Positions 12,238 through 28,688 of a stretch of DNA of 64,000 bases are shown piece by piece. Under the pieces are notes generated by a model. That model saw nothing but the letters and a program-made list of their open reading frames with translations, was not told the origin of the DNA and made no database searches. Numbering within the stretch: position 1 is the first letter of the stretch; every line of letters begins with the position of its first letter. This stretch comes from Thraustochytrium sp. TN22 (lineage: Eukaryota; Sar; Bigyra; Thraustochytrida; Thraustochytriidae), in the NCBI GenBank assembly GCA_013306675.1, contig JABLUY010000009.1:186001-250000 (forward strand), given 5' to 3'. Both the position numbers and the translations under genes were made by a program.

Positions 12238-15200
12238 TTACCTGCGCTTGTGCTTGGCCTTGGACTTGAACTTGTTGGAGCCGAGCTTGCCGCCCTTGCG
12301 CAGGCCACCCTTGCTCATGTCAGCCTCCTTCCAAACCGGGGCGGCGGCCGCGTCCTTGCGCTTGTTCTTGCGCGCGCGAGCGTCGAGCATGTTGAGTGCC
12401 TCGCCCGGGCGCATCTCGGCGCTAAAGCCGGCAAGCTCGGGCGCACCGAAGCGGGCCTTCTTCTTGACGGCCTTGGGCTTGCGCTGGTCTTCGTCCTGCT
12501 GCTGCTGCTGCTGCTTGCGGCGCTTCTTGCGGGAGGCCTGCTTGGCGGCGTCGGCGTCCTCGTCGACCAGGGGCGCGGCGCCGCGCTGGTCGACCTTCTC
12601 GCGCACCTTGCGCTTGGAGGCGCGAGCCGCCGCGGCGGCCATGCCGTCCTCAGCGCGGAGCGTGCGCTCGAACTCCTCGGTGGGCGCGCCGCGCTTCTTC
12701 TTGGCAGCCGCGCCGCCGCGGCGCGGGATCTCCGGCTCCTCAGCGGCATCGGCGTCCATCTGCTCCTCGAGCTGGGCCATGCGCCGGCGCTTCGCGCGGG
12801 TGAGGCGGTGCGTCTTCTTCTCGTCCTTTTGCTTCTGCTTGAGGTCGGCCGCGGCCTCGGCGTCGCGCAGCGCCTGCTTCCGCGCGCGCGCGCGGCCAGC
12901 CGGGGTCTGGTCCTCCGCGTTGGCGTCCGCCTCGGCCATCTGCGCGCGCGCTGCCTCACGGATCATCTTCTTCTCCTGCTGCGACTGGAACCAGGTGCGC
13001 TTCGGCTTGGACATGATCTCCTCGCGGTGCTCGATGCGGCGCTGCGCGCGGTCCACCTCCTCCTCGGCCGTGCGCAGCTCGCGCTCCACGCGCTCCTGCC
13101 GCAGCACGTCCTCGATCTCCTCCTCGTAGTCCGCGATGCGCTCGCGCAGCGCATCCACCACCGGGTCCGGGATGCTGCGGCTCTTGACGTTCTGCTGCGA
13201 CCGCCGCAGCACCTCCTTGGTCAGCTTGCGCTGCCGCTCGCCGGTCAGCGTCACGGCGCGACCGCCGCGCCCCGCGCGCGCCGTGCGGCCCACGCGGTGC
13301 ACGTAAGTGGAGAGGTCGTTCGGCATCTCGTAGTTGATCACCACGTCCACACCCTTGATGTCCAGACCGCGCGACGCCACGTCCGTGCACAAGAGAAAGT
13401 CCACCTCACCGTCGCGGAACCGCTGCAGCGACTCCAGGCGCTGGCGCTGCGTCAGGTTGCCGTGCAGCTCGGCCGCGCGCAGCCCAAACAGCCCGAAGAG
13501 AATGCCGAACCGGTGCGTGCGCGACTTGGCGCGAAAGAACACGATCGTGCGCGACTTGAACGAGCGCGTCACCAGCGCCAGCAGCATCGCCTCGCGGTCG
13601 CCCTCGCGCTGCGGCTTGATGCGCACGAACTCCTGCACCAGTCGATTCGCCATGTCGTACAGGGGGTCGGTCTCCACGCGCACCGGCCGGTTCAGACTCA
13701 GCTCCGCCAGCTCGTTCACCGACGTCGTCATGGTCGCCGAAAACAGCAACGTCTGTCGGCTCTTGGGGCAAAAGTCCACAATCTGCATCACCTCGTCGCG
13801 GAAGCCTAGCTCCAGCAGCCGGTCTGCCTCGTCCAAAATCAGAATCTCCACGTCATCCAGGTCCACCGACTTGGAGTTGAGCACGTGGTCGATCAGACGG
13901 CCCGGCGTCGCCACCACTATGTCCGGCCGCGATCGCAGCTCCTGCGCCTGCGCCTCCATCGACAGACCGCCCACCACGGCCGTCGCCACCACGTCCGTGA
14001 ACTGCGCCAGCGCCTCCGCCATGCTCAGCACCTGCTGCGTCAGCTCGCGCGTCGGCGTGATGATGAGCACGCGCGTCGCCTTGATGCGCTTCGCGCGGTA
14101 CTGCAGCCGCTCCAGGACAGGCAGCAAGAATGCCGCCGTCTTGCCCGAGCCGGTCGCGGCGCTGCCGCAAATGTCGCGCCCCGCCATGGCGTACGGGATG
14201 GCGCGCGCCTGGATCGGCGTCGGCCGCTCGAACTGCAGCGCCTGCGTCGCGCGGATCAGCGGCCGCGACAGGTTCAGCTGCGCGAACGTCTCCACCGCCG
14301 CGGCCTGCACCTTGTTCTTCTTCGCCTCCTTCTCCAGCAGCTCCTGCTTCTGCCGCGTGCGCTGCCGCACCTTCTCCAGGGTCTCTGAGTTGGCGCCCAT
14401 CTCACGCGAGAAATCCTCCTGCGGCTCCTCCCCGTCGTCCTCATCCTCATCCTCGTCCTCGTCCTCGTCCTCCTCGGCTGCCTCGAGCGCGCGCGACCGC
14501 TTGCGCCGCACGTCCACCGCCACCTCATCCTCGTCCTCGTCCTCCTCGTCTTCCTCGTCGTCCTCGCCCTCGTCCTCGTCCTGCTTCTTGGACTTCCGGC
14601 CCTCGGCCTCAGCCGCGAGCTCCGCCTGGGCCTGCCGCATTGCGCGTGCCTTGAGCGCGTTCTGGATCTTCTCGTCCAGCGAAGTGGCCGCGCGCTGACC
14701 GGCGCCCTCCAGGTCGCGGATGCGTTCAATCGCGTCCTTAAAGTCCCACGACTCGGGCGCCGCCGCCGGGCCCTCGTCGTCCGATTCCTCGTCCTCCGAT
14801 TCGGACGCCAGCCCATCCAGCAGGATGCCGCCGCGCAGCTGCGGCGCCGCCTCCTCGCCACCCGCGCCGGGCTTCTTCTGGCGCTCCGCCTCGGCCTCGG
14901 CCTCAGCGCGGGCGAGCTCGCGCCGCGACTGCTTCGGGGTTGCCGCCTTTTTGGCGGCGGCGGCGGCAGCGGCGGCGGCCTCCTTCGCCTTGGCCGCGGC
15001 CCTGCGCGCGGCCTCCTCCTCGCGGATCTTCTCGCGCGCTGACAAGGGCACGGCGCCGTTCTCGCCCTTCTTCATGACCAGCGACGCCATGCCCTGCGGC
15101 AGCCGCCGCTGCGTGCCGTTCGTCTTGAGTTCGGTCTTCTCCTCGCCCTCGCCCTCCTCCTCCTCCTCCTCGCCGTGCTGCTGCTCCTCGTCCGGCTGCG

Positions 15201-15339
15201 CCTTCTTGGCCTTGGCCTTGCCCGCCTTGGCGCGGCTGGTGGCCGGGACCTCCTCCTGCAGCTCCATCTCCGCCTCCGAGGCGGCGCCCTCGTCGTCGCT
15301 CTCGATCGTCATCACGAAGCCCGCCACCGCGCGAACCAT
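12238..15339 (-). CDS. DDX27: DEAD-box ATP-dependent RNA helicase, Drs1/DDX27 type
   Basis: Drs1/DDX27 is a nucleolar RNA helicase needed for 60S ribosomal subunit maturation. The 1,033-residue product has an acidic, low-complexity N-terminus. The helicase core (about 365-730) has the Q motif (PTPIQARAIP), Walker A ATGSGKT, PTRELTQQ, TPGRLIDH, DEAD (ILDEADRLL), SAT, and C-terminal motifs TDVASRGLDI and HRVGRTARAGRGG. The tail is Lys/Arg/Glu-rich and coiled. Core spacing and the phrase EADRLLELGF are those of Drs1/DDX27. The frame is open to 15438 but starts there with GTG. The ATG at 15339 sits in a perfect Kozak context (CACCATGG) and is the likely start. Shared function with UTP6 and ESF1 nearby is notable but may be chance. 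Confidence 0.95.
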   Translation of the reverse strand: MVRAVAGFVMTIESDDEGAASEAEMELQEEVPATSRAKAGKAKAKKAQPDEEQQHGEEEEEEGEGEEKTELKTNGTQRRLPQGMASLVMKKGENGAVPLSAREKIREEEAARRAAAKAKEAAAAAAAAAKKAATPKQSRRELARAEAEAEAERQKKPGAGGEEAAPQLRGGILLDGLASESEDEESDDEGPAAAPESWDFKDAIERIRDLEGAGQRAATSLDEKIQNALKARAMRQAQAELAAEAEGRKSKKQDEDEGEDDEEDEEDEDEDEVAVDVRRKRSRALEAAEEDEDEDEDEDEDDGEEPQEDFSREMGANSETLEKVRQRTRQKQELLEKEAKKNKVQAAAVETFAQLNLSRPLIRATQALQFERPTPIQARAIPYAMAGRDICGSAATGSGKTAAFLLPVLERLQYRAKRIKATRVLIITPTRELTQQVLSMAEALAQFTDVVATAVVGGLSMEAQAQELRSRPDIVVATPGRLIDHVLNSKSVDLDDVEILILDEADRLLELGFRDEVMQIVDFCPKSRQTLLFSATMTTSVNELAELSLNRPVRVETDPLYDMANRLVQEFVRIKPQREGDREAMLLALVTRSFKSRTIVFFRAKSRTHRFGILFGLFGLRAAELHGNLTQRQRLESLQRFRDGEVDFLLCTDVASRGLDIKGVDVVINYEMPNDLSTYVHRVGRTARAGRGGRAVTLTGERQRKLTKEVLRRSQQNVKSRSIPDPVVDALRERIADYEEEIEDVLRQERVERELRTAEEEVDRAQRRIEHREEIMSKPKRTWFQSQQEKKMIREAARAQMAEADANAEDQTPAGRARARKQALRDAEAAADLKQKQKDEKKTHRLTRAKRRRMAQLEEQMDADAAEEPEIPRRGGAAAKKKRGAPTEEFERTLRAEDGMAAAAARASKRKVREKVDQRGAAPLVDEDADAAKQASRKKRRKQQQQQQDEDQRKPKAVKKKARFGAPELAGFSAEMRPGEALNMLDARARKNKRKDAAAAPVWKEADMSKGGLRKGGKLGSNKFKSKAKHKRR

Positions 15340-15695
15340 GGTGCCGCCCCTCGCGCGCCGCGCACCGCCTCCCCGCCGCTGCGCGCGCGGACGGACTCTG
15401 CGCGCCTCTGCGCGCGCGCTTCGACTGGTCCTCGCCACCAGCCAGCCGCCGCCGCCTTCCCCGCGTTACCGCGCCGGCCGCGCCCGTAGGGAAAAACAGC
15501 ATGACGGTCAGTCGCACAGGCACATCAGGCACCGTCACGGTGCCAGTGAGAGCAGCAGCCGGCACCGCCGGGCGCCGCGTAACTGACGGTGAGGCCAGGC
15601 GAACCGCCTCTGCCTGTCTGGCTGAGATACGGCAGGCGCCGCAAACGGTGGATACGGAAGGATGAGATGATTTAGCATTTTGCTCGCTTCACTCT
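15340..15695. promoter_or_regulatory. Intergenic region upstream of DDX27
   Basis: This 356-bp region lies between the DDX27 start and the end of the RNA-repair gene, both on the minus strand. It holds TGCCAGTG at 15541-15548, a recurrent intergenic octamer in this window, and on the minus strand CTGGTGGCGAGG (about 15431-15443), a loose match to the motif shared by UTP6 and ESF1. No gene is seen. Confidence 0.55.
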
Positions 15696-18600
15696 TCAGG
15701 CCACTTGTACGTCCACGGAGGTCGACTCCGGGAGCGCGAGGTGCGCGAGCTCGGCGCGGAGCGTGGACGCTGCCATAGCGTGCGGCAGCGTGAGGCGGAT
15801 ATGCGCGTAGAATCGGTCGGACCAGGCGTTGAAGCGGAGGCCGCCGTCGCCCTCTGCGTGCACGGCGCCGTGGGTGTCCACCAGAGCGCGCAGGACGCGG
15901 GGAAAGCCGGCCTCGAGCTGGAGAGCCGCCTTCCACGGCCGCTTGGTCTCTACGGTGACGATCACGTCAATGCCCGCAGGCGTAGGCAGCGACTCCCCAC
16001 AGAAAGCAGCGCGCAAACGCGGCAGGTACATGAGGTGGCACTCCGCGAAGGAAGGCTCGTACAGCCCGACCAGAATCGAGCGCCACTCCTCCACCGGCAA
16101 TGAACGACCCACATACGCGCAGAAGCTGTCAAAGAGCGCGTCATCTGAGCGCGCTTCGCTTCGATCGTCCTCCAGGAATCGTGTCGCGAGAATGGCGAGC
16201 TGGAAGGTACGGATCATCTGCAGATGGCGGCCACGCAAACCGCGCTCGCAAAGCAGCGCGTCGGAACGGTCCACGAGAAGCCGCAGCCGGTGCTTGCCGC
16301 TCGGAACACGTGCGACACGCGAAAGGAGCTGCGCCCCGAACTGCGGTCCCTCCAGACTGCGGCGGCCCTCCGCGGTCGTGCAGGCGTCCAGCAGCGCCTC
16401 TACGCATTCCGCCCGGTCGCTGTCCTCTTCCGCGGCCGCGCAGAGCCTGCGCAGCGCGCCCAAGCGAACCTCCGCCAACACGATATCTAGGTCGACGCAC
16501 ACGCGCGATGCCTGGTGTTCCAGATGCAGCGCAATGCGAGGGCACTTGGAGCGCCGCGCAAGATGCGAGTCCACGATGCACACATCACCGGTGTCGGCGC
16601 CGCGCATGGTAAAGAGAGTACCGCGGCGCACTCGATCGTACAGCTGCTGCAACACATCTACAGGCGTCTCCGGGTGCACAAGGCAGACGTCCATATCCAT
16701 GCTCAAGCGCCCGTAGATGGAGGAACCAAAGCGCAACGCGAACCTGTCCGGGTCGCACGAGGCGAGTTCAGGGGTGTGCCTTGCCACAATGTCGTGCAGC
16801 TCGCCGCAGACCCAGGCAAGGGCAGCTTGCTTGAGCGAATGCCTGATGGTATCGGCGCGGCCAGTCCTGCGCGCCTGCTCGCGGAGCTTGTTCGCGTCGA
16901 CCAGGCGAAAGTCAATTGCTTGCGTCCGCATCGACTGCTCCACCGCGTGCAACGCCTTCTGATCGTCCTCGTAGTAGGTCACGGAGGCGAAGCCGAGATC
17001 CGCAAGCTCGGAAACTGCGGTCTGCTTGAAGGGCGCCGTAAACCGGAACGAAACGGGCTTCATGAGAATCGCATCCGGGGCAAGGCCATGCTCCGCGAGC
17101 AGGTCGCCCACCGGCTCCCGGAGGGTCGCCTTGCGGCCAGTGAGGACCACGACGCATGCCTCGGGCGCGAGGGCGCGGAGGCGCGGCATGGCCGGGCCGT
17201 CGTCGACCTCGCCGCGAAGTGACAGCGGCATGGAGACGAAGTAGCCAGGCGCCAGGCGCCACGAGACGGGCGGGTACGGTGTGTCGAGGAGCGTGCGGTC
17301 CATGTCAAAGACATGCAGGTCGCGAGGCCGCGGAAGCGGACCCGCGGCACGCAGCGCGAACCAGCGAGCCAATGGGTCACTCTCGAAGTCTAGCGCGAGC
17401 TGGGCAACAGAGAGCGCCTCGGAGAGGGTCTGCCCGCTCAGAAGCGCCTCCTCAAACCAGCGTCGCCGCCCGCGGCAGGGCTCCCACACGTCGACCTGGA
17501 GGCCATGAGCCTTGGCCTGCTGCGCCGCGCGCGCGTACTCCCAGACGTGGGGGAACGCCTCGGCCAGCACCACGGTCGTGATCTCGTCCCGGCCCAGAGC
17601 GTCGAGAAAGTCCTCCGTCGAGCAGCAACGCGCGGTGAAGGGCGCGTCGCCGACGTCCTCGAGGATCAAATCCTTGCTTTGCGAAGATGGCCCGCGGACA
17701 ATGACAAGTCTGCGGCCACTCGCATGAGAAGAGGAGGCCTTCGCGGTGCGCAGCGTTCGCATCGCGTCCATGTGAGCTTTCTCCCATGCGACCGTGTCCA
17801 CCTGGTCATCGAGACGGGCTGTCCACGACGGGACGTTGCGCGCAGTCGACGCAAGGCACGCGTAAAGCGTCTGAGAAGCCGAGGGCGGCTGCATGCGCGC
17901 GAGGTGGAGCGCGCGCACCTGAAAGCGGCCTAGGCTTGCGTCTCGGAACGCGAAGCGCACCGCTTCGGGGAAGACGACGCCGCTGCGGCTCATGGCGCGC
18001 GACACCTTGGAGATGGTCATGTGCGGGACGAACTCGTGCAGGTCCTGTCCCTTCCAGACGCCGACGCCCAGCTTTTCAATCATGTGATTGCGCAGCATCT
18101 CGTGCAGGTGCACGCAGGCGGCGTAAGAACCGTCACGATCGTCTAGGCATCCATAGAGGACGCGGCGGCCGGTGAAGTAGTCGACTCCACGCACGTGCAG
18201 CGGCCGGTCGGCGCTGATGGCGGCACCAAGGTCGAAGGACTCGAGCGCCGCTTCCGCGGCCTCGACCTCGCGATCGCTCCGCAGACGCAGCGTCAACAGC
18301 GTAACATGCAAACAGGTCAGCTTGAGGGCGCCCTCAAAGACGTCGCCGTCGCGCTGCTGGATCTCCTCGACGCATTTCACGATCCGTGGCGTTAGCACGC
18401 GCGCGAAGACGAAGTAATTCGGCCGGTCTGCGTTGTCGCGCGAGGTCCGCTCCGTGTCCTGCGCGGGGTCGGCCTGTACGGCCTCGCGAGGTGGACTGTC
18501 CTCGATCACCGCCTCAATCCTGTTGCCGTTGCCTCTGGGGAAGCTGCCAAAGATGTCGTCCACGCGGCTATCTGCGCGCCTGTCCCACACGATACGGGCG

Positions 18601-18818
18601 CCGCCGTCGCGCGAGAAGTACTTGAAATACAGGATCCTGGTCTGCGGGATCGCTGTCGCGGTGTGACTGAGCGCGGCGAAGTCATCCTGAAAGTTGAAGC
18701 TCGTGAAGGCCTTCTCCACGACACCAGCAAAGCGGTCTAGGTACCCCACCGCGAAGGCCTCGGCCGGCAGGCTCTCGTCCCAGAGGAGCCTGTGCACGAC
18801 GTCAAGTGCGGGCCGCAT
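15696..18818 (-). CDS. Multi-domain RNA-repair protein (MJ1316, 2H, kinase-like, HAD, NTase)
   Basis: This 1,040-residue polypeptide strings together RNA-end-processing domains. (1) Residues 2-90 match the MJ1316/DUF504 RNA cyclic-end recognition domain, with VVHRLLWDESLP, VGYLDRF, TRILYFKYF and IVWDRR. (2) Residues 133-325 are a 2H phosphoesterase (AKAP7/LENG9 type) with both HxT motifs, HVT 171-173 and HMT 266-268. (3) Residues 369-450 resemble the PNK-like P-loop kinase of N4BP2 (LVIVRG at the start, VWEYARAAQQAKAHG later), but the Walker A is degenerate (GPSSQSKD), so it is probably not a kinase. (4) Residues 501-640 are a HAD phosphatase: DMDRT (Asp505, Asp507), LTGRK, Lys587, EDD 617-619. 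(5) Residues 695-790 are a Pol-beta-type nucleotidyltransferase: GSSIYGRLSMDMD (Asp708, Asp710) with VDLDI as third acid. The C-terminal 250 residues are unassigned. The frame extends ten codons upstream to a GTG. The ATG at 18818 is the first. Confidence 0.87.
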   Translation of the reverse strand: MRPALDVVHRLLWDESLPAEAFAVGYLDRFAGVVEKAFTSFNFQDDFAALSHTATAIPQTRILYFKYFSRDGGARIVWDRRADSRVDDIFGSFPRGNGNRIEAVIEDSPPREAVQADPAQDTERTSRDNADRPNYFVFARVLTPRIVKCVEEIQQRDGDVFEGALKLTCLHVTLLTLRLRSDREVEAAEAALESFDLGAAISADRPLHVRGVDYFTGRRVLYGCLDDRDGSYAACVHLHEMLRNHMIEKLGVGVWKGQDLHEFVPHMTISKVSRAMSRSGVVFPEAVRFAFRDASLGRFQVRALHLARMQPPSASQTLYACLASTARNVPSWTARLDDQVDTVAWEKAHMDAMRTLRTAKASSSHASGRRLVIVRGPSSQSKDLILEDVGDAPFTARCCSTEDFLDALGRDEITTVVLAEAFPHVWEYARAAQQAKAHGLQVDVWEPCRGRRRWFEEALLSGQTLSEALSVAQLALDFESDPLARWFALRAAGPLPRPRDLHVFDMDRTLLDTPYPPVSWRLAPGYFVSMPLSLRGEVDDGPAMPRLRALAPEACVVVLTGRKATLREPVGDLLAEHGLAPDAILMKPVSFRFTAPFKQTAVSELADLGFASVTYYEDDQKALHAVEQSMRTQAIDFRLVDANKLREQARRTGRADTIRHSLKQAALAWVCGELHDIVARHTPELASCDPDRFALRFGSSIYGRLSMDMDVCLVHPETPVDVLQQLYDRVRRGTLFTMRGADTGDVCIVDSHLARRSKCPRIALHLEHQASRVCVDLDIVLAEVRLGALRRLCAAAEEDSDRAECVEALLDACTTAEGRRSLEGPQFGAQLLSRVARVPSGKHRLRLLVDRSDALLCERGLRGRHLQMIRTFQLAILATRFLEDDRSEARSDDALFDSFCAYVGRSLPVEEWRSILVGLYEPSFAECHLMYLPRLRAAFCGESLPTPAGIDVIVTVETKRPWKAALQLEAGFPRVLRALVDTHGAVHAEGDGGLRFNAWSDRFYAHIRLTLPHAMAASTLRAELAHLALPESTSVDVQVA

Positions 18819-19272: not shown

Positions 19273-22200
19273 TTATTCGTTGGCAACGAAGAAGGCGACA
19301 ACCTCATCCGTGGCGAGCTCGAGTGGAAGTGCGCCGGCGTGGTTGCGCGCATCCTTGCTCGCGCCGCGGCGTAAAAGGTCCTCGACGCAGGCGACATGGC
19401 CGGCTGCGCAGGCGACGTGCAGCAACGTAGTCTCCTGGTCCGGAGCATCGGCGCCCAAAGACGGTAGTTGGCGCTTGGGTAGCGAGGGATCGGCGTCGCA
19501 GAGGGCGGCCAGGCTTTTGGGCTTGCCGTGATGTGCGGCGAGGAGCGCGAGCTCCGGCAAAAGGACATCGAGGTGCTCGACGGCCAGCACGGCGAGTGTC
19601 TCCGGGACGTCCGGGGTTTCCTCGCCACAGGCAAGGCGTGCGAGGGCGGCGCGGTCGAGGCGGTCGTCGCCGCCGTCGCCGTCATCTTCATTCTCATGGG
19701 CGGCGCGGTCGAACGAGACGAGCTCCGCGAGAATGGGCGCGTGGCCGTGACGGACGGCGAGCTGAAAGTCGTCTGGCAGGCGCGCAAGCGCGGGGCAGTG
19801 TGCGAGCGAGGTCGCGACGATATCGGCGCCGTTGGTCTCGATCGCCAGCTCGAAGGAGCGGCGCAGGTCGAGCGCGGCGAGACGGTCAGCCTCAGGGTCC
19901 TTCTCGTGCAGCGCAGCCTCGAGCAGGAGCTTGTAGCCGGGCGCGAAGCCCTGCTGCACGGCGACCCGCAGGAGATCGCGCAGGAGGTCCGGCTTGTCGT
20001 CGGCAGCGGTACCGACGCGCTTGAGCAGGAGGTCGAGGCTAGCGAGGTGGCCTCCATGGGCCGCGCCAAAGAGCGCGTTGTGGCGGTGCGTGTCCAGGTG
20101 CAAGATGTGGTCGCGCGGCGCCTTGTCGGCCTTGAGGAGCGCGCGCAGCATGGCCGTGCAGCCGTGCTGCGCCGCGACGTGGACTGGGTAGCGGCCGACC
20201 TTGTCCTGAACGGCGACACAGTCGGCGAGGCGGGGCACAAGCGCGGCGGCGGCCTCGTCGAGATTCGCATTGATGCAGGCGGCGTGCAGCGGTGTCTCGC
20301 CGTTGAAGTTGGCAATGGTGGACGGCACGCCGAGCTGTAGGAGGCGGTCGAGCGAGAGCTCGGCGCAGGCGGCCGCGGCGCTGTGTAGCGGCGTGTTGCC
20401 GGCCTTGTCGCGTACCGAAGCGAGATCGAGACCAGCGGACTGCAGCGCGCGCAGAAGGCCGCCCGTGAGGCTGTCGCTGGCGCAGACCTCGTGCAGAGGC
20501 GTGGTGCCAGCCCGGTCCGCATCGGTGAGGCAGTCGGTCAGGTCGGTTTTGGCCTTTTTCAGCAGGAGCTCGAGCGCGCGTTCGCTCTGCGCGGCGTAGT
20601 GGAAGACGTTGCGTCCGGCCGCGTCGTGCTGCGAGGCGATCAGGTCCGGGTGCGCGACGAGTCGCACGATGTCGATGGCGTTGGCGCTGGCCGCCGCCAT
20701 GAGCACGGAGACGCCGGTGTCGGGCGTCTGGAACTCGACGGGGAAGCCGGCCTCCACGGCGGCGCGCGTCTTGAAAAAGGCGTGGTCACCGCGTGCGCGA
20801 ACAACGTGCACGAGCTTCTCAGGCGCGTCCAGAATACGGCGCAGCTCGTCGTCGGTGACGGCGTCATTCTCGATATCGATCTGCCAGCCGCTGGACAGGA
20901 GATCGGCGCACTCGTCGTGGTCGCCCTGAACCGCGAGCTTCCAGGGGGTGCGGCCCTGCGCGTCCTGGCACTGCACGTCCGCCTTGGCGACGTCGACCAG
21001 GTAGCGCACGATGTCGACGAGGCCGCGCCCCGCGGCCACGTGCAGCGCGGTGGCACCCTCGGTGTCGGCGCGGTTCACCTCGGCGTGGCCGGCCTCGACG
21101 AGGTGTTGCACAAGCTCAACCGAAGGCCGGCGGCCAGCCACCGCGAGCAGAAGCGGTGTGCGCGCGAGCGCGCTGTTGGGGTCGACGCTGTTGGCGTCCT
21201 GATCGCAAAGCAGCAGTGGCAGAATGAGCGTCTCGAGCCCGGCTGCGCAGGCCTCGTGCAGCAGCGTGTGGCCGGTCGAGGCGAGGCGGCACTTCTTGGC
21301 GAGAAGCATCTCGGCGATCTCCACGAAGCCGCCGCGCGTCGCGAGGACGACGCCGGACTGGCCGGCGTCGTTCTCGTGGTCAATGTTGAGCCCCCACTTG
21401 ATGGCCTTGCGCACCAGCTTGCGGTAGCCGAAGCGGCAGGCAATGGTGAGTACGGTGTCGCCGTTATCGTCCTCGAGCTCGTGGCAGCTCTCCGCGGCGT
21501 GCAGGTCCTCGACCTCCTGGCGGCGGCCCAAGCGCGCCTGGAAGAAGATGTCCGTAAGGCGCTCGTCAAGCATGGCCGCGGCGCGCACGCGGGCCAGGCG
21601 ACCGCGCACGATGCGTTGCATGTCGACTGCGGCCCATGCCTGGCGCATCTGCAGGCGGCGAGCGCGAATGAAGCGCACGCGGGCGCGGCCCAGGAGCCAG
21701 CCGCGGCAGACACGCTGGATGGAGAGCGCGGCGGCCTGGCGCACAAGCGCCTCGTGCTCGTCCTTGATGTCCTCGAGGCGAGCGCGGCACGCTACGCCGC
21801 GCGCCACGGCCTGAATACTGCAGGCAGCGCGGCCCTGGCGGCGAAGACGCTCGCGCTCCCGCATCCGGCGCAGCTGGCGGTCGGCGCGGGCGCGACGCCA
21901 AAAGCACTGGATACGTGTGCTCTGCACTCGCTCGCGGCGCGTGCGTAGTGCGCCCGTGCGCCTCTTGCCAAGGTGCCACATGCGATAGGTGGACTGGATG
22001 CGGACGACGGCGCGCTGCACGCCCTCCGCGTTCCTGCGGTCGCGCAAGCTGTCGAGGCAGCGGCGGCCGAGCGCGCCGCGCACAAAGGCCGTGAGGCGCG
22101 TGGCGGCGCCGTTGAGACGCTCTACAAGCTGCGTGTAGCGTTCCTTGTGCGCGGCGCGCGTCGCCAGGAAGCGGCGCGCGGCGGCCTGGATCTTGATGCT

Positions 22201-22902
22201 TGAGCGCTCTCGGTACTCCTCCGCGCGCTTGGCATTTTCCGCGAGCTCCATCTTGAGGCGGATCTGCTGTGTGATGACCTGGTACGAGCGCTTCATCTTG
22301 CGCTGCAGGCGCAGGCGGCCTGCATTACGCTTGAGCCAGCGCCGCATGAGGAAGCCTCGCGCCGTGCGCTGCAGCACGACGGCGGCGCTCGTCTCCAGAC
22401 TGGTGCGCTTCTCGCGCCTCAGGCCGAGCTTGGTCAAAAAGTGCGCTTCCTCGCAGCGCATGTCGCGCTGGATCTGCACGGAGGCCGAGGCGTCCCCCTT
22501 GGCGGGCCTGGGCCTTCGCGCATCGAGTGGCGAGCAGAGCTGCTGCCGCTGCGCTCTCGCGCGCGCAGACTCATCCGCGGATAGAGCGTTCTGCCAGCGC
22601 TCGTTAGGCGTCGTGCGGATCGTACAGATCACGGAGATGACATTGCTCTGCGTCGCCCTGCGCGCCGTGAACCACAGCTTGCGGTCTGGCGTCACCAGCG
22701 GTCTGAGCGCGACCTCCAGGTCCGCCTCGCCCGAGAGCAGCTCCTCCAGCTGGTCCGCGTCCAGCAGCGTCTTGGCCTTGCCGTCGCCGCCCTCCACCAT
22801 GCCCCTGGCGGCCACCTCTGCCGCGTCCTCCGCGTTCAGCTGCTGCCCGTCCTGCGCGAGCTCGCGCATGGCGACCGCCGCCATGTCGCCCGCGCCGGCC
22901 AT
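19273..22902 (-). CDS. IQ-motif and ankyrin-repeat scaffold protein
   Basis: A 1,209-residue intronless protein. The N-terminal 165 residues are soluble and unassigned. About eight IQ-like calmodulin-binding motifs follow (about 165-470), for example SSIKIQAAARRFLATR, AVVRIQSTYRMWHLGKR and ALSIQRVCRGWLLGR. From about 475 to the C-terminus come roughly fifteen ankyrin repeats, with typical TPLHxAA and GATALHVAAGRGLVDIVRYL units. Several are degenerate. This layout is common in large protist proteins that bind calmodulin or centrin along the axoneme or cortex. Such a location here is only inference, encouraged by the flagellar genes in the window. The ATG at 22902 is real. The gene is divergent from UTP6 across 415 bp. 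Confidence 0.88.
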   Translation of the reverse strand: MAGAGDMAAVAMRELAQDGQQLNAEDAAEVAARGMVEGGDGKAKTLLDADQLEELLSGEADLEVALRPLVTPDRKLWFTARRATQSNVISVICTIRTTPNERWQNALSADESARARAQRQQLCSPLDARRPRPAKGDASASVQIQRDMRCEEAHFLTKLGLRREKRTSLETSAAVVLQRTARGFLMRRWLKRNAGRLRLQRKMKRSYQVITQQIRLKMELAENAKRAEEYRERSSIKIQAAARRFLATRAAHKERYTQLVERLNGAATRLTAFVRGALGRRCLDSLRDRRNAEGVQRAVVRIQSTYRMWHLGKRRTGALRTRRERVQSTRIQCFWRRARADRQLRRMRERERLRRQGRAACSIQAVARGVACRARLEDIKDEHEALVRQAAALSIQRVCRGWLLGRARVRFIRARRLQMRQAWAAVDMQRIVRGRLARVRAAAMLDERLTDIFFQARLGRRQEVEDLHAAESCHELEDDNGDTVLTIACRFGYRKLVRKAIKWGLNIDHENDAGQSGVVLATRGGFVEIAEMLLAKKCRLASTGHTLLHEACAAGLETLILPLLLCDQDANSVDPNSALARTPLLLAVAGRRPSVELVQHLVEAGHAEVNRADTEGATALHVAAGRGLVDIVRYLVDVAKADVQCQDAQGRTPWKLAVQGDHDECADLLSSGWQIDIENDAVTDDELRRILDAPEKLVHVVRARGDHAFFKTRAAVEAGFPVEFQTPDTGVSVLMAAASANAIDIVRLVAHPDLIASQHDAAGRNVFHYAAQSERALELLLKKAKTDLTDCLTDADRAGTTPLHEVCASDSLTGGLLRALQSAGLDLASVRDKAGNTPLHSAAAACAELSLDRLLQLGVPSTIANFNGETPLHAACINANLDEAAAALVPRLADCVAVQDKVGRYPVHVAAQHGCTAMLRALLKADKAPRDHILHLDTHRHNALFGAAHGGHLASLDLLLKRVGTAADDKPDLLRDLLRVAVQQGFAPGYKLLLEAALHEKDPEADRLAALDLRRSFELAIETNGADIVATSLAHCPALARLPDDFQLAVRHGHAPILAELVSFDRAAHENEDDGDGGDDRLDRAALARLACGEETPDVPETLAVLAVEHLDVLLPELALLAAHHGKPKSLAALCDADPSLPKRQLPSLGADAPDQETTLLHVACAAGHVACVEDLLRRGASKDARNHAGALPLELATDEVVAFFVANE

Positions 22903-25538: not shown

Positions 25539-28500
25539 TCAGGTCTGTGTCATTTCCACCGAGGCGCCGGGGCGGCTCGTGGCCCGCGCTTCGAGGTCGA
25601 CGAGGTCATCCGCAGATGCGGAGGATGTGCGGCCGGCGCCCGCACTGCCAGCACTGCCAGAGCTGGCGCTGGCGCTAGCGCCGGCGTCGACGACCTCGTC
25701 GTCCGCCGCCCGGACCACGTGGTCGTCCGAGTCTGGGACGGCGGCCTTGCGGCCAAAGCGCAGCCAGGCCGGGAGCTCGCTGGCGTGGCGCGAGAAGACG
25801 AAGATGCGCAAAACCACAAAGACAACAAAGGCGGCGATGACAAAGACCCAGGAGAGGTACCACGAGTCCAGGAACCAGACAAAGATGAGGGAGGTGATCA
25901 TCTGCCAGAACTGCATGGGGAAGCCGAAACGCAGAAAGTCCGCGAAGACGTAGTTGCCGACGTTGAGCACCATCATGTTGGTCTGGTAGCCGTAGGAGGT
26001 GGAGAAGGAGGAGGACGCCGAGAGCATGAGCGTGTAGACCATCTGCTGGCGGCACTTCTCCTGGCCGGCGTCGGTGGAGGCCGTGCAGGAGTTCTCTGCC
26101 GCGAGAATGGCGATGTCGAACATGAGGACGGCCGCCGAGTTGTTGGAAAGCACCATGGAGAGGAGAAAGGTGGCAAAGTAGACGGCCGTGAGGACGCCTG
26201 GGAAGCCGGTGTTGGTGATGGCGGCGAGGTCGACGAGCGCGTTACCGACGGTGTCGGCGACGCCGGTGTTCTGCAGTGCGTTGGAGAGGCCAAAAGCGGC
26301 GGCAATGGTGACAATGACGTCCCAGGAGACGGCGCGGCGCGCGGACTCGGGCGTAAGGATGCCGGTGACGAGCATGATGCCGACCACAAAGATGGCCGGC
26401 TCGATGAGCGTAATGTAGTCGGAGAAGACGACGTACATGACGAGCATGATGATGACGGAGACGATCGCGATGTAGAACTTGTCAAAGTGAGGCGGCGAGG
26501 AGTCGTTGATCTCTGAGACGAGCAAGAAGTTGGGGTTGTCGCGGTACCGCGCGACAAAGTTGGGACCCGTGTCGAGGATGAGAACGTCACCGGAGCGCAG
26601 CTCGATGTCGCCAATCTTGGACAGCACGCGGCGGCCCTGGCGGTGCACGGCGATAATGGCGGCCTCGTAGAGCGTGCGGAACTTGGACTCGCGCACGGTC
26701 TTGCCGACAAGGTGCGAGCGCATGCTGACGACGCACTCGACCAGGCGGCGCTGCACCGGCTGGATCTTGAGCTTCTCGGCCTGGGCGTCGGGCGACATGA
26801 GGCCAGGAATGCGGCGCAGGGTGGCGACGGCCTCGCGCTCGCCGGCAAACCAGAGCATATCGTTCGCGGCGAGCTCCATTTCAGGGCCGACGACATGCTC
26901 GACAAAGCCGTCCTCGTGCTCGACGGCGACAAGGAAGAGGCCGGGGAGACCACGCAAGCCGGCGCTCTCGACGGTCTGGCCGACGAGCGGGCGCGCACCG
27001 CGCAGCTTGGCGGTCTCGCTGACGCGCATGGGGATGAGGAACTCGCGCTCGAGCTCCTGCTGGCTGGCGTGGTTGAGATGATCCATGGCGGAGCCGAGGC
27101 GCGAGCCATCGCGGGCGTGCTCGAGCTCGACCTGTGCGGACATGAAGGGCTTGAGATCCTGGACAATCTCGGGGCGCGTCCAGGTGAAGTCATTGCCGGT
27201 GACGAGGAGCAGAACGTCGCCGACCTGCAGCGGGATGCGGCCCAGGTTGCCGCGGATGCTCATGTCCTCGCCAGCGCGGTAGAGCGAGAGGATGGCGGCG
27301 TCGTAGCGCTTGCGGAACTTGACCTCCTTGGCGGTCTTGCCCTCAAGCGTGCTGTCGCTCTTGACGACGACCTTGATGATGCGCTCCTCGAAGGTGTTGC
27401 GGCGCGACATGCCCTTGCCGTTGTTGTCGCCGTTCTTCTTGGTCTTGGGCCGCACCTGAGGGCTGGCGCCCTTGACATCGGCTACGGAGGTGGCGGCGCT
27501 ATGCGAGTCCCAGCCAATGGGCTCGAAGGAGGTTGCCGCCGCGGGCGAGCGCAGCGAGGAGCCCTTGACGCCACTCGGGCTCGTGGAGGCGTGCACACCC
27601 GAGGCCGGCCGCGGCCCCGCGGGGGTCTCGTTGTCGTAATCGTCGCCGGACTCCTCGTCGGAGTCGAGCGCACTCGCCTGCGAGCCTCGGTCGCTTTGCA
27701 GGTGGCGGTCCTCGTTGGCGTCGGTGAGCAGTTCGAAGCCGTTGCGAAGGCAGAACTCGCCGAACTGGTCGACCAGCCCGGTGAAAAAGAGAATGTCGTT
27801 CTCGTTGATGACGAACTCCGGGCCGACCGCGTTGTGCAGGCGTGTGCCACGCTGCACGCTGGTCAGGTAGAGCCCGTTGAGGCCGCGCAGGCCGGCCTCG
27901 TCCACAGCCTTGCCCACCACTGGCGAGTACGAGGTGGCGATGCAAGCGACGGTGAAGTCGCCCGTGAGCCCAGACGTGATGTCCTGGGCATCCTCGCCGA
28001 CGACGGACTTGTTGCCGGCGCCCTCCAGGCCGAGCGCCTTGCGCGAGCGGCGCTCCAGCTCCGCGGAGCCGGGCAGCAGAAAGGGCGAGAAGATGAGAAT
28101 GTAGAGAATACCGGTGAGCGCCGCCGGCACGCCCACCATCGCGACGTCGAAAAGCCCAATGCTCTCGCCGGGGAAGGCCGTCTCGTACTTGCCGGAGATG
28201 ACCAGATTCGTGCTCGTGCCGATGAGCGTGATGGTGCCGCCCAGAATGGACGCGAACGAGAGCGGGATCATGAGCTGCGACACCGGCTGGTGGATGCGCC
28301 GCGCCCACCGCTGCACGAGCGGGATCATGACCGCGCACAGCGGCGTGTTGTTCAGAAACGCCGAGGCCGCCGCCACGGGCAACATGAGCCGCAGCTGTGC
28401 GGCCACCAGCGTGCGCGGCTGGCCCAGCACCTTGCCGAACACGTGGTCCAGGGCACCTGTTGACTCGATGCCGGCCGCCACCACGTACAGAATCGCCACG

Positions 28501-28688
28501 GTCAGCACTGCAGAGCTTGAGAACCCCTCCAGACCTTCACTGGTGTCCACCACCTGGGCGGCCATGAGCACGCCCAGGGTCGCCACCAGCGCGAAGTCCG
28601 CCGGCGCCCAGTCGCGCACCAGCGCCACGAACATGATGAGGAGGCATCCCAGCGTCAGCCAGCCGTCCCAGCCGAACGGGACGCCCAT
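25539..28688 (-). CDS. SLC13/DASS-type anion transporter with four TrkA_C domains (copy A)
   Basis: Likely a membrane transporter for sulfate or another divalent anion. The 1,049-residue protein has two transmembrane halves. The N-terminal half (1-215) has the family motifs SAFLNNTPL (about 111-119) and GTITLIGTSTNL. The C-terminal half (about 735-965) has VLSNNSAAVLM and SYGYQTNMMVLN. Between them lie four TrkA_C (RCK_C) domains at about 248-315, 434-500, 549-640 and 648-735. They bind unknown ligands and probably gate or sense. This arrangement is that of the Chlamydomonas SAC1/SLT family of sulfate transporters and sensors and of bacterial SLC13-type permeases. An acidic Ser/Pro-rich linker separates the first two TrkA_C domains. 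Copy B lies immediately upstream on the same strand. Substrate is inferred from the family only. Confidence 0.9.
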   Translation of the reverse strand: MGVPFGWDGWLTLGCLLIMFVALVRDWAPADFALVATLGVLMAAQVVDTSEGLEGFSSSAVLTVAILYVVAAGIESTGALDHVFGKVLGQPRTLVAAQLRLMLPVAAASAFLNNTPLCAVMIPLVQRWARRIHQPVSQLMIPLSFASILGGTITLIGTSTNLVISGKYETAFPGESIGLFDVAMVGVPAALTGILYILIFSPFLLPGSAELERRSRKALGLEGAGNKSVVGEDAQDITSGLTGDFTVACIATSYSPVVGKAVDEAGLRGLNGLYLTSVQRGTRLHNAVGPEFVINENDILFFTGLVDQFGEFCLRNGFELLTDANEDRHLQSDRGSQASALDSDEESGDDYDNETPAGPRPASGVHASTSPSGVKGSSLRSPAAATSFEPIGWDSHSAATSVADVKGASPQVRPKTKKNGDNNGKGMSRRNTFEERIIKVVVKSDSTLEGKTAKEVKFRKRYDAAILSLYRAGEDMSIRGNLGRIPLQVGDVLLLVTGNDFTWTRPEIVQDLKPFMSAQVELEHARDGSRLGSAMDHLNHASQQELEREFLIPMRVSETAKLRGARPLVGQTVESAGLRGLPGLFLVAVEHEDGFVEHVVGPEMELAANDMLWFAGEREAVATLRRIPGLMSPDAQAEKLKIQPVQRRLVECVVSMRSHLVGKTVRESKFRTLYEAAIIAVHRQGRRVLSKIGDIELRSGDVLILDTGPNFVARYRDNPNFLLVSEINDSSPPHFDKFYIAIVSVIIMLVMYVVFSDYITLIEPAIFVVGIMLVTGILTPESARRAVSWDVIVTIAAAFGLSNALQNTGVADTVGNALVDLAAITNTGFPGVLTAVYFATFLLSMVLSNNSAAVLMFDIAILAAENSCTASTDAGQEKCRQQMVYTLMLSASSSFSTSYGYQTNMMVLNVGNYVFADFLRFGFPMQFWQMITSLIFVWFLDSWYLSWVFVIAAFVVFVVLRIFVFSRHASELPAWLRFGRKAAVPDSDDHVVRAADDEVVDAGASASASSGSAGSAGAGRTSSASADDLVDLEARATSRPGASVEMTQT

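Follow-up and report, generated by a model that had tools for sequence, protein, structure and literature searches.

A minus-strand gene in a 64,000-nucleotide stretch of the Thraustochytrium sp. TN22 genome (contig JABLUY010000009.1, positions 186,001 to 250,000; the whole stretch is referred to as the window) encodes a single polypeptide with five RNA-end-processing modules, the last of which is predicted to be part of a complete poly(A) polymerase (PAP) fold. We lean, with caution, towards the view that this protein is a heal-and-tail enzyme, which would first heal the 3' ends of RNA and then extend them.

Five RNA-end-processing domains on one polypeptide

The gene covers window positions 15696..18818, from an ATG at 18818 to the stop codon at 15696-15698, and its 1040 codons for 1040 amino acids can be read without an intron. 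All features of the window for which coordinates are given here lie on the minus strand. The GC fractions at codon positions 1, 2 and 3 of this frame are 0.70, 0.48 and 0.81, which is a coding-type pattern. Three full-length relatives were found: P0002, the closest one, from the thraustochytrid Hondaea fermentalgiana (1087 amino acids, 47% identity over 99%), the metagenome protein P0003 (1024 amino acids), and P0004 (1073 amino acids), which is encoded on a 13.9 kb contig and filed under the dinoflagellate Durusdinium trenchii, a database label that may reflect contamination by another protist. The three protein searches, whose reach was restricted by word sampling, returned 1, 1 and 3 matches (P0003 itself and P0002 were among the three of the last search), and no relative was found in the viral contigs and the bacterial and archaeal genomes that were scanned. 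Conservation was assessed in the set of four sequences formed by the window protein (P0001) and these relatives. The first two residues, M1-R2, are kept in all four, which supports the ATG at 18818 as the true start. The domain order is identical in the four proteins, namely MJ1316, AKAP7-type 2H, polynucleotide kinase (PNK)-like P-loop, HAD phosphatase and Pol-beta-type nucleotidyltransferase (NTase), and therefore speaks against an assembly chimera.

The MJ1316 domain, a predicted reader of RNA cyclic-group ends, occupies residues 1-80 (18579..18818) and matches PF04457 with an E value of 1.4e-18 and 67.8 bits, against a curated cut-off of 26.3. The other three proteins exceed this cut-off as well, and the identity among the four domains is 51-69%. 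Residues 133-324 (17847..18422) form the AKAP7-type 2H phosphoesterase domain, matching PF10469 (AKAP7_NLS) with an E value of 4e-17, and all four proteins score above the Pfam cut-off for this family. When the four-sequence 2H profile was compared with PDB, 6 of the 8 rows were mitoribosomal AKAP7_NLS proteins and AKAP18/AKAP7 (6.7e-13 to 5.1e-11; AKAP18 3.8e-12, AKAP7 5.1e-11). The two HxT motifs, at residues 171-173 (H171; 18300..18308) and 266-268 (H266; 18015..18023), are kept in all four sequences, so that the domain has the HxT/S pair of 2H enzymes in a fold that was assigned through the family match rather than from a usable model.

The original prediction, made from the DNA letters, had placed these five modules on one polypeptide without stating the strand, and had listed an MJ1316 domain, a 2H phosphoesterase with both HxT motifs, a ruined Walker A motif, a HAD phosphatase with four motifs and a Pol-beta-type NTase with GS and DxD motifs. 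Pfam and profile matches together with conserved motifs bear out this list, except that the HAD domain scores below the cut-off of the HAD_SAK family and that its motif III lysine can be placed in two ways.

A conserved phosphatase next to a degenerate kinase-like domain

The HAD phosphatase (residues 496-645; 16884..17333) is closest to the Pnkp type, since the best match of its four-sequence profile among PDB sequences was the RNA-repair protein Pnkp1 (1.6e-4). Motif I, DxDxT, lies at residues 505-509 (17292..17306), and D505, D507, T509, T560, K598 and D618 are kept in all four sequences, each of which thus carries the DxDxT, T/S, K and D motifs of the superfamily. With HAD_SAK_1 (PF10307) the window protein reached 2.1e-4 and 21.6 bits, which is below the cut-off of 25.6 and does not make it a member of that family; P0004 reached 21.5 bits, P0002 13.3 bits, and P0003 was not listed at E <= 1. 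The PHROG family phrog_415 (phage polynucleotide kinase) matched P0003 at 6.6e-6 and P0001 at 0.0091.

The putative PNK-like P-loop domain (residues 369-480; 17379..17714) is degenerate. Its profile gave mammalian PNKP as the top PDB match, at a weak E value of 0.012 (PNKP made up 5 of the 7 rows), and none of 200 column shuffles scored as high as the actual comparison with two PNK domains that this genome carries in intact form. The Pfam scan of the window protein at E <= 1 named neither this region nor the NTase, and a full-length AlphaFold model from two sequences (pLDDT 36) was unusable for the P-loop domain. Its Walker A motif (residues 376-383; 17670..17693) reads GPSSQSKD in the window protein and GFACASKD, GMPSVMKS (P0003) and GLGAAAKR in the relatives; G376 and K382 are invariant among the four positions checked, and the intact GxxxxGK[ST] of an active polynucleotide 5'-kinase is absent from every member. 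A ruined kinase is characteristic of this family. For the five sequence pairs that involve P0003 or P0004, the identity is 30-35% in the HAD domain and 32-39% in the NTase, and it drops to 14-21% in the P-loop domain, as expected when a domain is freed from catalytic constraint. Judged by their sequences, the P-loop and HAD domains together resemble a kinase-phosphatase of the T4 Pnkp kind whose kinase has degenerated.

The C-terminal third is predicted to adopt a poly(A) polymerase fold

In the NTase, the GS motif (residues 698-699; 16722..16727) and the DxD motif (residues 708-710, D708 and D710; 16689..16697) are kept in all four sequences. A probable third carboxylate, D778 (16485..16487), is likewise invariant, and the nearby D776 is an Asp in 3 of the 4. 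The profile running from the NTase to the C-terminus matched DNA polymerase beta in PDB at 0.2, over the NTase motifs. The original prediction had treated the C-terminus as a separate, unassigned region. Instead, structure prediction suggests that residues 655-1040 (15699..16856) form one complete canonical PAP-like fold, in which the C-terminus joins the NTase, and the predicted model has NTase, central and RRM-like domains in the PAP arrangement. Where a PAP has its central domain, the model has a helical domain with a conserved GLRGRHxQMIRTFQ (residues 801-944; 15987..16418), and where a PAP has its RRM-like domain, a beta-alpha-beta-beta-beta-alpha-beta segment (residues 945-1040; 15699..15986), the boundaries of both having been chosen by us.

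In the structural comparison, the PAP rows showed 10-14% identity. PAP_central (PF04928) was absent from the matches of all four members at E <= 1, one member other than the window protein matched MTPAP-like_central (palm) weakly (0.016), and when residues 655-1040 were compared as a profile with a four-PAP alignment, a short chance match was all that emerged. When the sequence test against PAP was split by domain, with 200 shuffles each, the observed score was reached by 1 shuffle in the case of the NTase, by 84 for the central domain and by 109 for the RRM-like domain, and because of the last two values the link to PAP is not demonstrated by sequence alone. A thiamine enzyme was the top PDB row of the profile from the NTase to the C-terminus (8.5e-4, approximately residues 795-866, in the helical part); this match was discounted, since in the model these residues fit PAP throughout. 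Separately, the 845-residue Hyperionvirus protein A0A3G5AFW8 in BFVD, whose name assigns it to the EEP-family phosphatases, has a match to the PAP-like fold (E 4.9e-8) and is possibly another phosphatase-PAP fusion.

RNA repair and tailing genes elsewhere in the genome

The assembly that contains the window comprises 37.9 Mb in 453 contigs, and ATP-dependent RNA ligase domains occur in it. One minus-strand frame (L008:2045-5443; G000:C321) combines 2H-SAK (1.1e-15) with a tandem pair of Rnl2-type ligase stretches and an AAA_33 kinase whose intact Walker A reads GPPASGKST, together with an NT5C-like HAD match (0.00077, below cut-off) and a weak TPR match (0.29). This frame resembles a true Swiss Army Knife (SAK)-type protein, and paired ligase stretches in a single frame look unusual. 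A second heal-and-seal candidate, also on the minus strand (L009:3966-6737; G000:C277), carries RNA_lig_T4_1 and an AAA_33 kinase whose Walker A is intact (GLPGSGKST), besides an NT5C-like HAD match (0.0045, below cut-off). A closeness of the window protein's HAD domain to the two HADs of these ligase frames was not shown, as 25 of 200 shuffles reached the score. Genome searches with PF10307 and PF18143 gave no match anywhere, and since the controls were negative too, they are uninformative. An RtcB ligase was not found in this genome by a six-frame search that ignores introns (the control was positive in 9 of 14 genomes). Two adjacent matches to Tpt1 (2'-phosphotransferase) in overlapping frames (L005/L006; G000:C124:44099-45398) represent either two genes or one two-domain gene.

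In agreement with the original prediction that no classical ligase is present, ATP-grasp and RtcB ligase families did not appear in the Pfam scan of the window protein at E <= 1. It had further been proposed that 5'-end healing was lost or moved elsewhere; a loss is not required, and a move is compatible with the intact PNK P-loops and RNA ligase domains of the two frames above.

Within the window, the adjoining genes encode a DEAD-box helicase (12238-15438), whose top PDB match is Has1 (1.9e-79), and a protein that contains IQ motifs and a large number of ankyrin repeats (19273-22902). The latter and a UTP6 gene are neighbours of eukaryotic type according to Pfam. Further away, 25539-28688 encodes a transporter of the CitMHS type. 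It has four TrkA_C stretches, and the best one falls within the span of the CitMHS match.

A possible heal-and-tail pathway

In the mechanism that we favor, the MJ1316 domain would bind RNA fragments whose ends carry a 2',3'-cyclic phosphate after cleavage by metal-independent ribonucleases. The 2H domain would open the cyclic phosphate ring, the Pnkp-type HAD phosphatase would strip off the monophosphate, leaving a free 3'-OH, and the PAP-type C-terminal third would add nucleotides. The degenerate kinase domain may serve as a scaffold or an RNA-binding surface retained from a Pnkp-like ancestor. The tail could either restore a lost 3' end or mark the fragment for 3'-5' decay. The catalytic steps, their order, the substrate and the outcome are what we infer from the domains. 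This scheme seems the likeliest. Every conserved active site has a single use in it, and it accounts for the absence of a ligase and of an intact kinase. The original prediction had also read the protein as recognizing damaged RNA, opening the ring, removing the phosphate and adding nucleotides, a prediction that the module anatomy and residue conservation support. The two other frames of the genome with PNK and ligase domains give the cell a sealing branch, beside which this protein would form a tailing branch. More tentatively, and with slightly less than even confidence, we suggest that SAR protists have a dedicated heal-and-tail RNA pathway, parallel to heal-and-seal, through which the choice between restoring and discarding a cleaved RNA is made.

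Several observations weigh against the heal-and-tail scheme. The chief argument against ring opening is the kinship of the 2H domain with AKAP7, because the AKAP7-type 2H enzymes that have been studied cleave 2',5'-oligoadenylates and leave cyclic phosphates instead of opening such rings (PMC8406329). The role of MJ1316 as a reader of cyclic ends is itself a prediction, and the PAP link of the central and RRM-like parts rests on a model predicted from four sequences. The motif III lysine of the HAD domain may be K598 or K587, the latter being kept in 3 of the 4 sequences (His in P0004). Finally, P0003 may retain nucleotide binding, as its Walker A motif is the closest to an intact one, with the G, K and S kept and only the second Gly missing.

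Alternatively, the protein could be a housekeeping enzyme that matures the 3' end of one RNA species rather than repairing damage, for example by U6-like trimming and tailing or at tRNA 3' ends. Nucleotidyltransferases extend U6, and a search of the genome with the window protein gave no match other than the protein itself. Trimming of U6 small nuclear RNA at its 3' end is the work of Usb1, which belongs to the 2H enzymes. However, the usual 3'-end jobs look staffed, because a Usb1-family match (PF09749, 1.3e-29), two PolyA_pol (CCA-type), one canonical PAP and six PAP_assoc matches lie elsewhere in the genome, and we consider a housekeeping role unlikely. Less probable still is a sensor or binder of damaged RNA in which some catalytic domains are inactive or regulatory, since the key residues of the 2H, HAD and NTase domains are kept in all four sequences despite an identity of only 33-46% between these domains of the window protein and those of two distant relatives, even if the kinase domain, degenerate in every member, would suit such a role. 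We regard as very improbable a nucleotide-signal enzyme that synthesizes an oligonucleotide messenger through its NTase and destroys it through its AKAP7-like 2H domain, in line with the subfamily of that domain, comparable to OAS and the 2',5'-phosphoesterases in animals.

If the heal-and-tail scheme is correct, its interest lies in the fate of cleaved RNA. Cyclic-phosphate ends block tailing. Cells heal such ends for sealing, as described for tRNA ligase pathways (PMC3400036). End recognition, healing and a predicted PAP fold on one chain predict a second fate, tailing, for these ends. Public names would then need correcting, since two of the relatives are named after LENG9 ('Leukocyte receptor cluster member 9'), which hides a likely phosphatase and polymerase.

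Comparison with known systems

Fusions of MJ1316 to RNA-repair domains have been noted across eukaryotes (PMC6514570). A description of an MJ1316 protein fused to a full PAP fold was not found in the accessible parts of the literature searched, but may nonetheless exist in print. The MJ1316 domain is common to the window protein and animal LENG9, and the former has Pnkp-like and PAP-like parts in addition. LENG9 also has a 2H domain and, to our knowledge, lacks both extra parts. Its CCCH zinc finger has no counterpart in the window protein, for which the Pfam scan listed no CCCH family at E <= 1. With the AKAP7 2',5'-phosphoesterase, the protein shares the 2H subfamily, according to both Pfam and the PDB profile, and differs in the neighbouring domains. 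In T4 Pnkp the kinase precedes the phosphatase, and the window protein shares this order and profile similarity with T4 Pnkp and bacterial Pnkp1, but its Walker A motif is degenerate. Canonical eukaryotic PAPs (PAP alpha/gamma, yeast Pap1 and Pla1) have in common with it the predicted three-domain fold, the GS and DxD motifs and the later Asp, whereas the window protein combines low identity and the missing PAP_central match with RNA-end healing domains that precede the polymerase part.

An RNA ligase on the same chain is part of the repair syntax of SAK proteins, which have named Pfam families and were reportedly defined by Burroughs and Aravind in 2016 (NAR). The window protein shares with these polyvalent proteins, represented in its genome by L008:2045-5443, the presence of several RNA-end enzymes on one chain and the theme of 2H, HAD and PNK domains. 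It differs from them in having no ligase, a degenerate kinase, a 2H domain of AKAP7 type instead of 2H-SAK, a HAD_SAK_1 score below the cut-off and a predicted PAP fold. The protein is best filed with the known polyvalent RNA-repair proteins, as a new variant with a predicted PAP fold.
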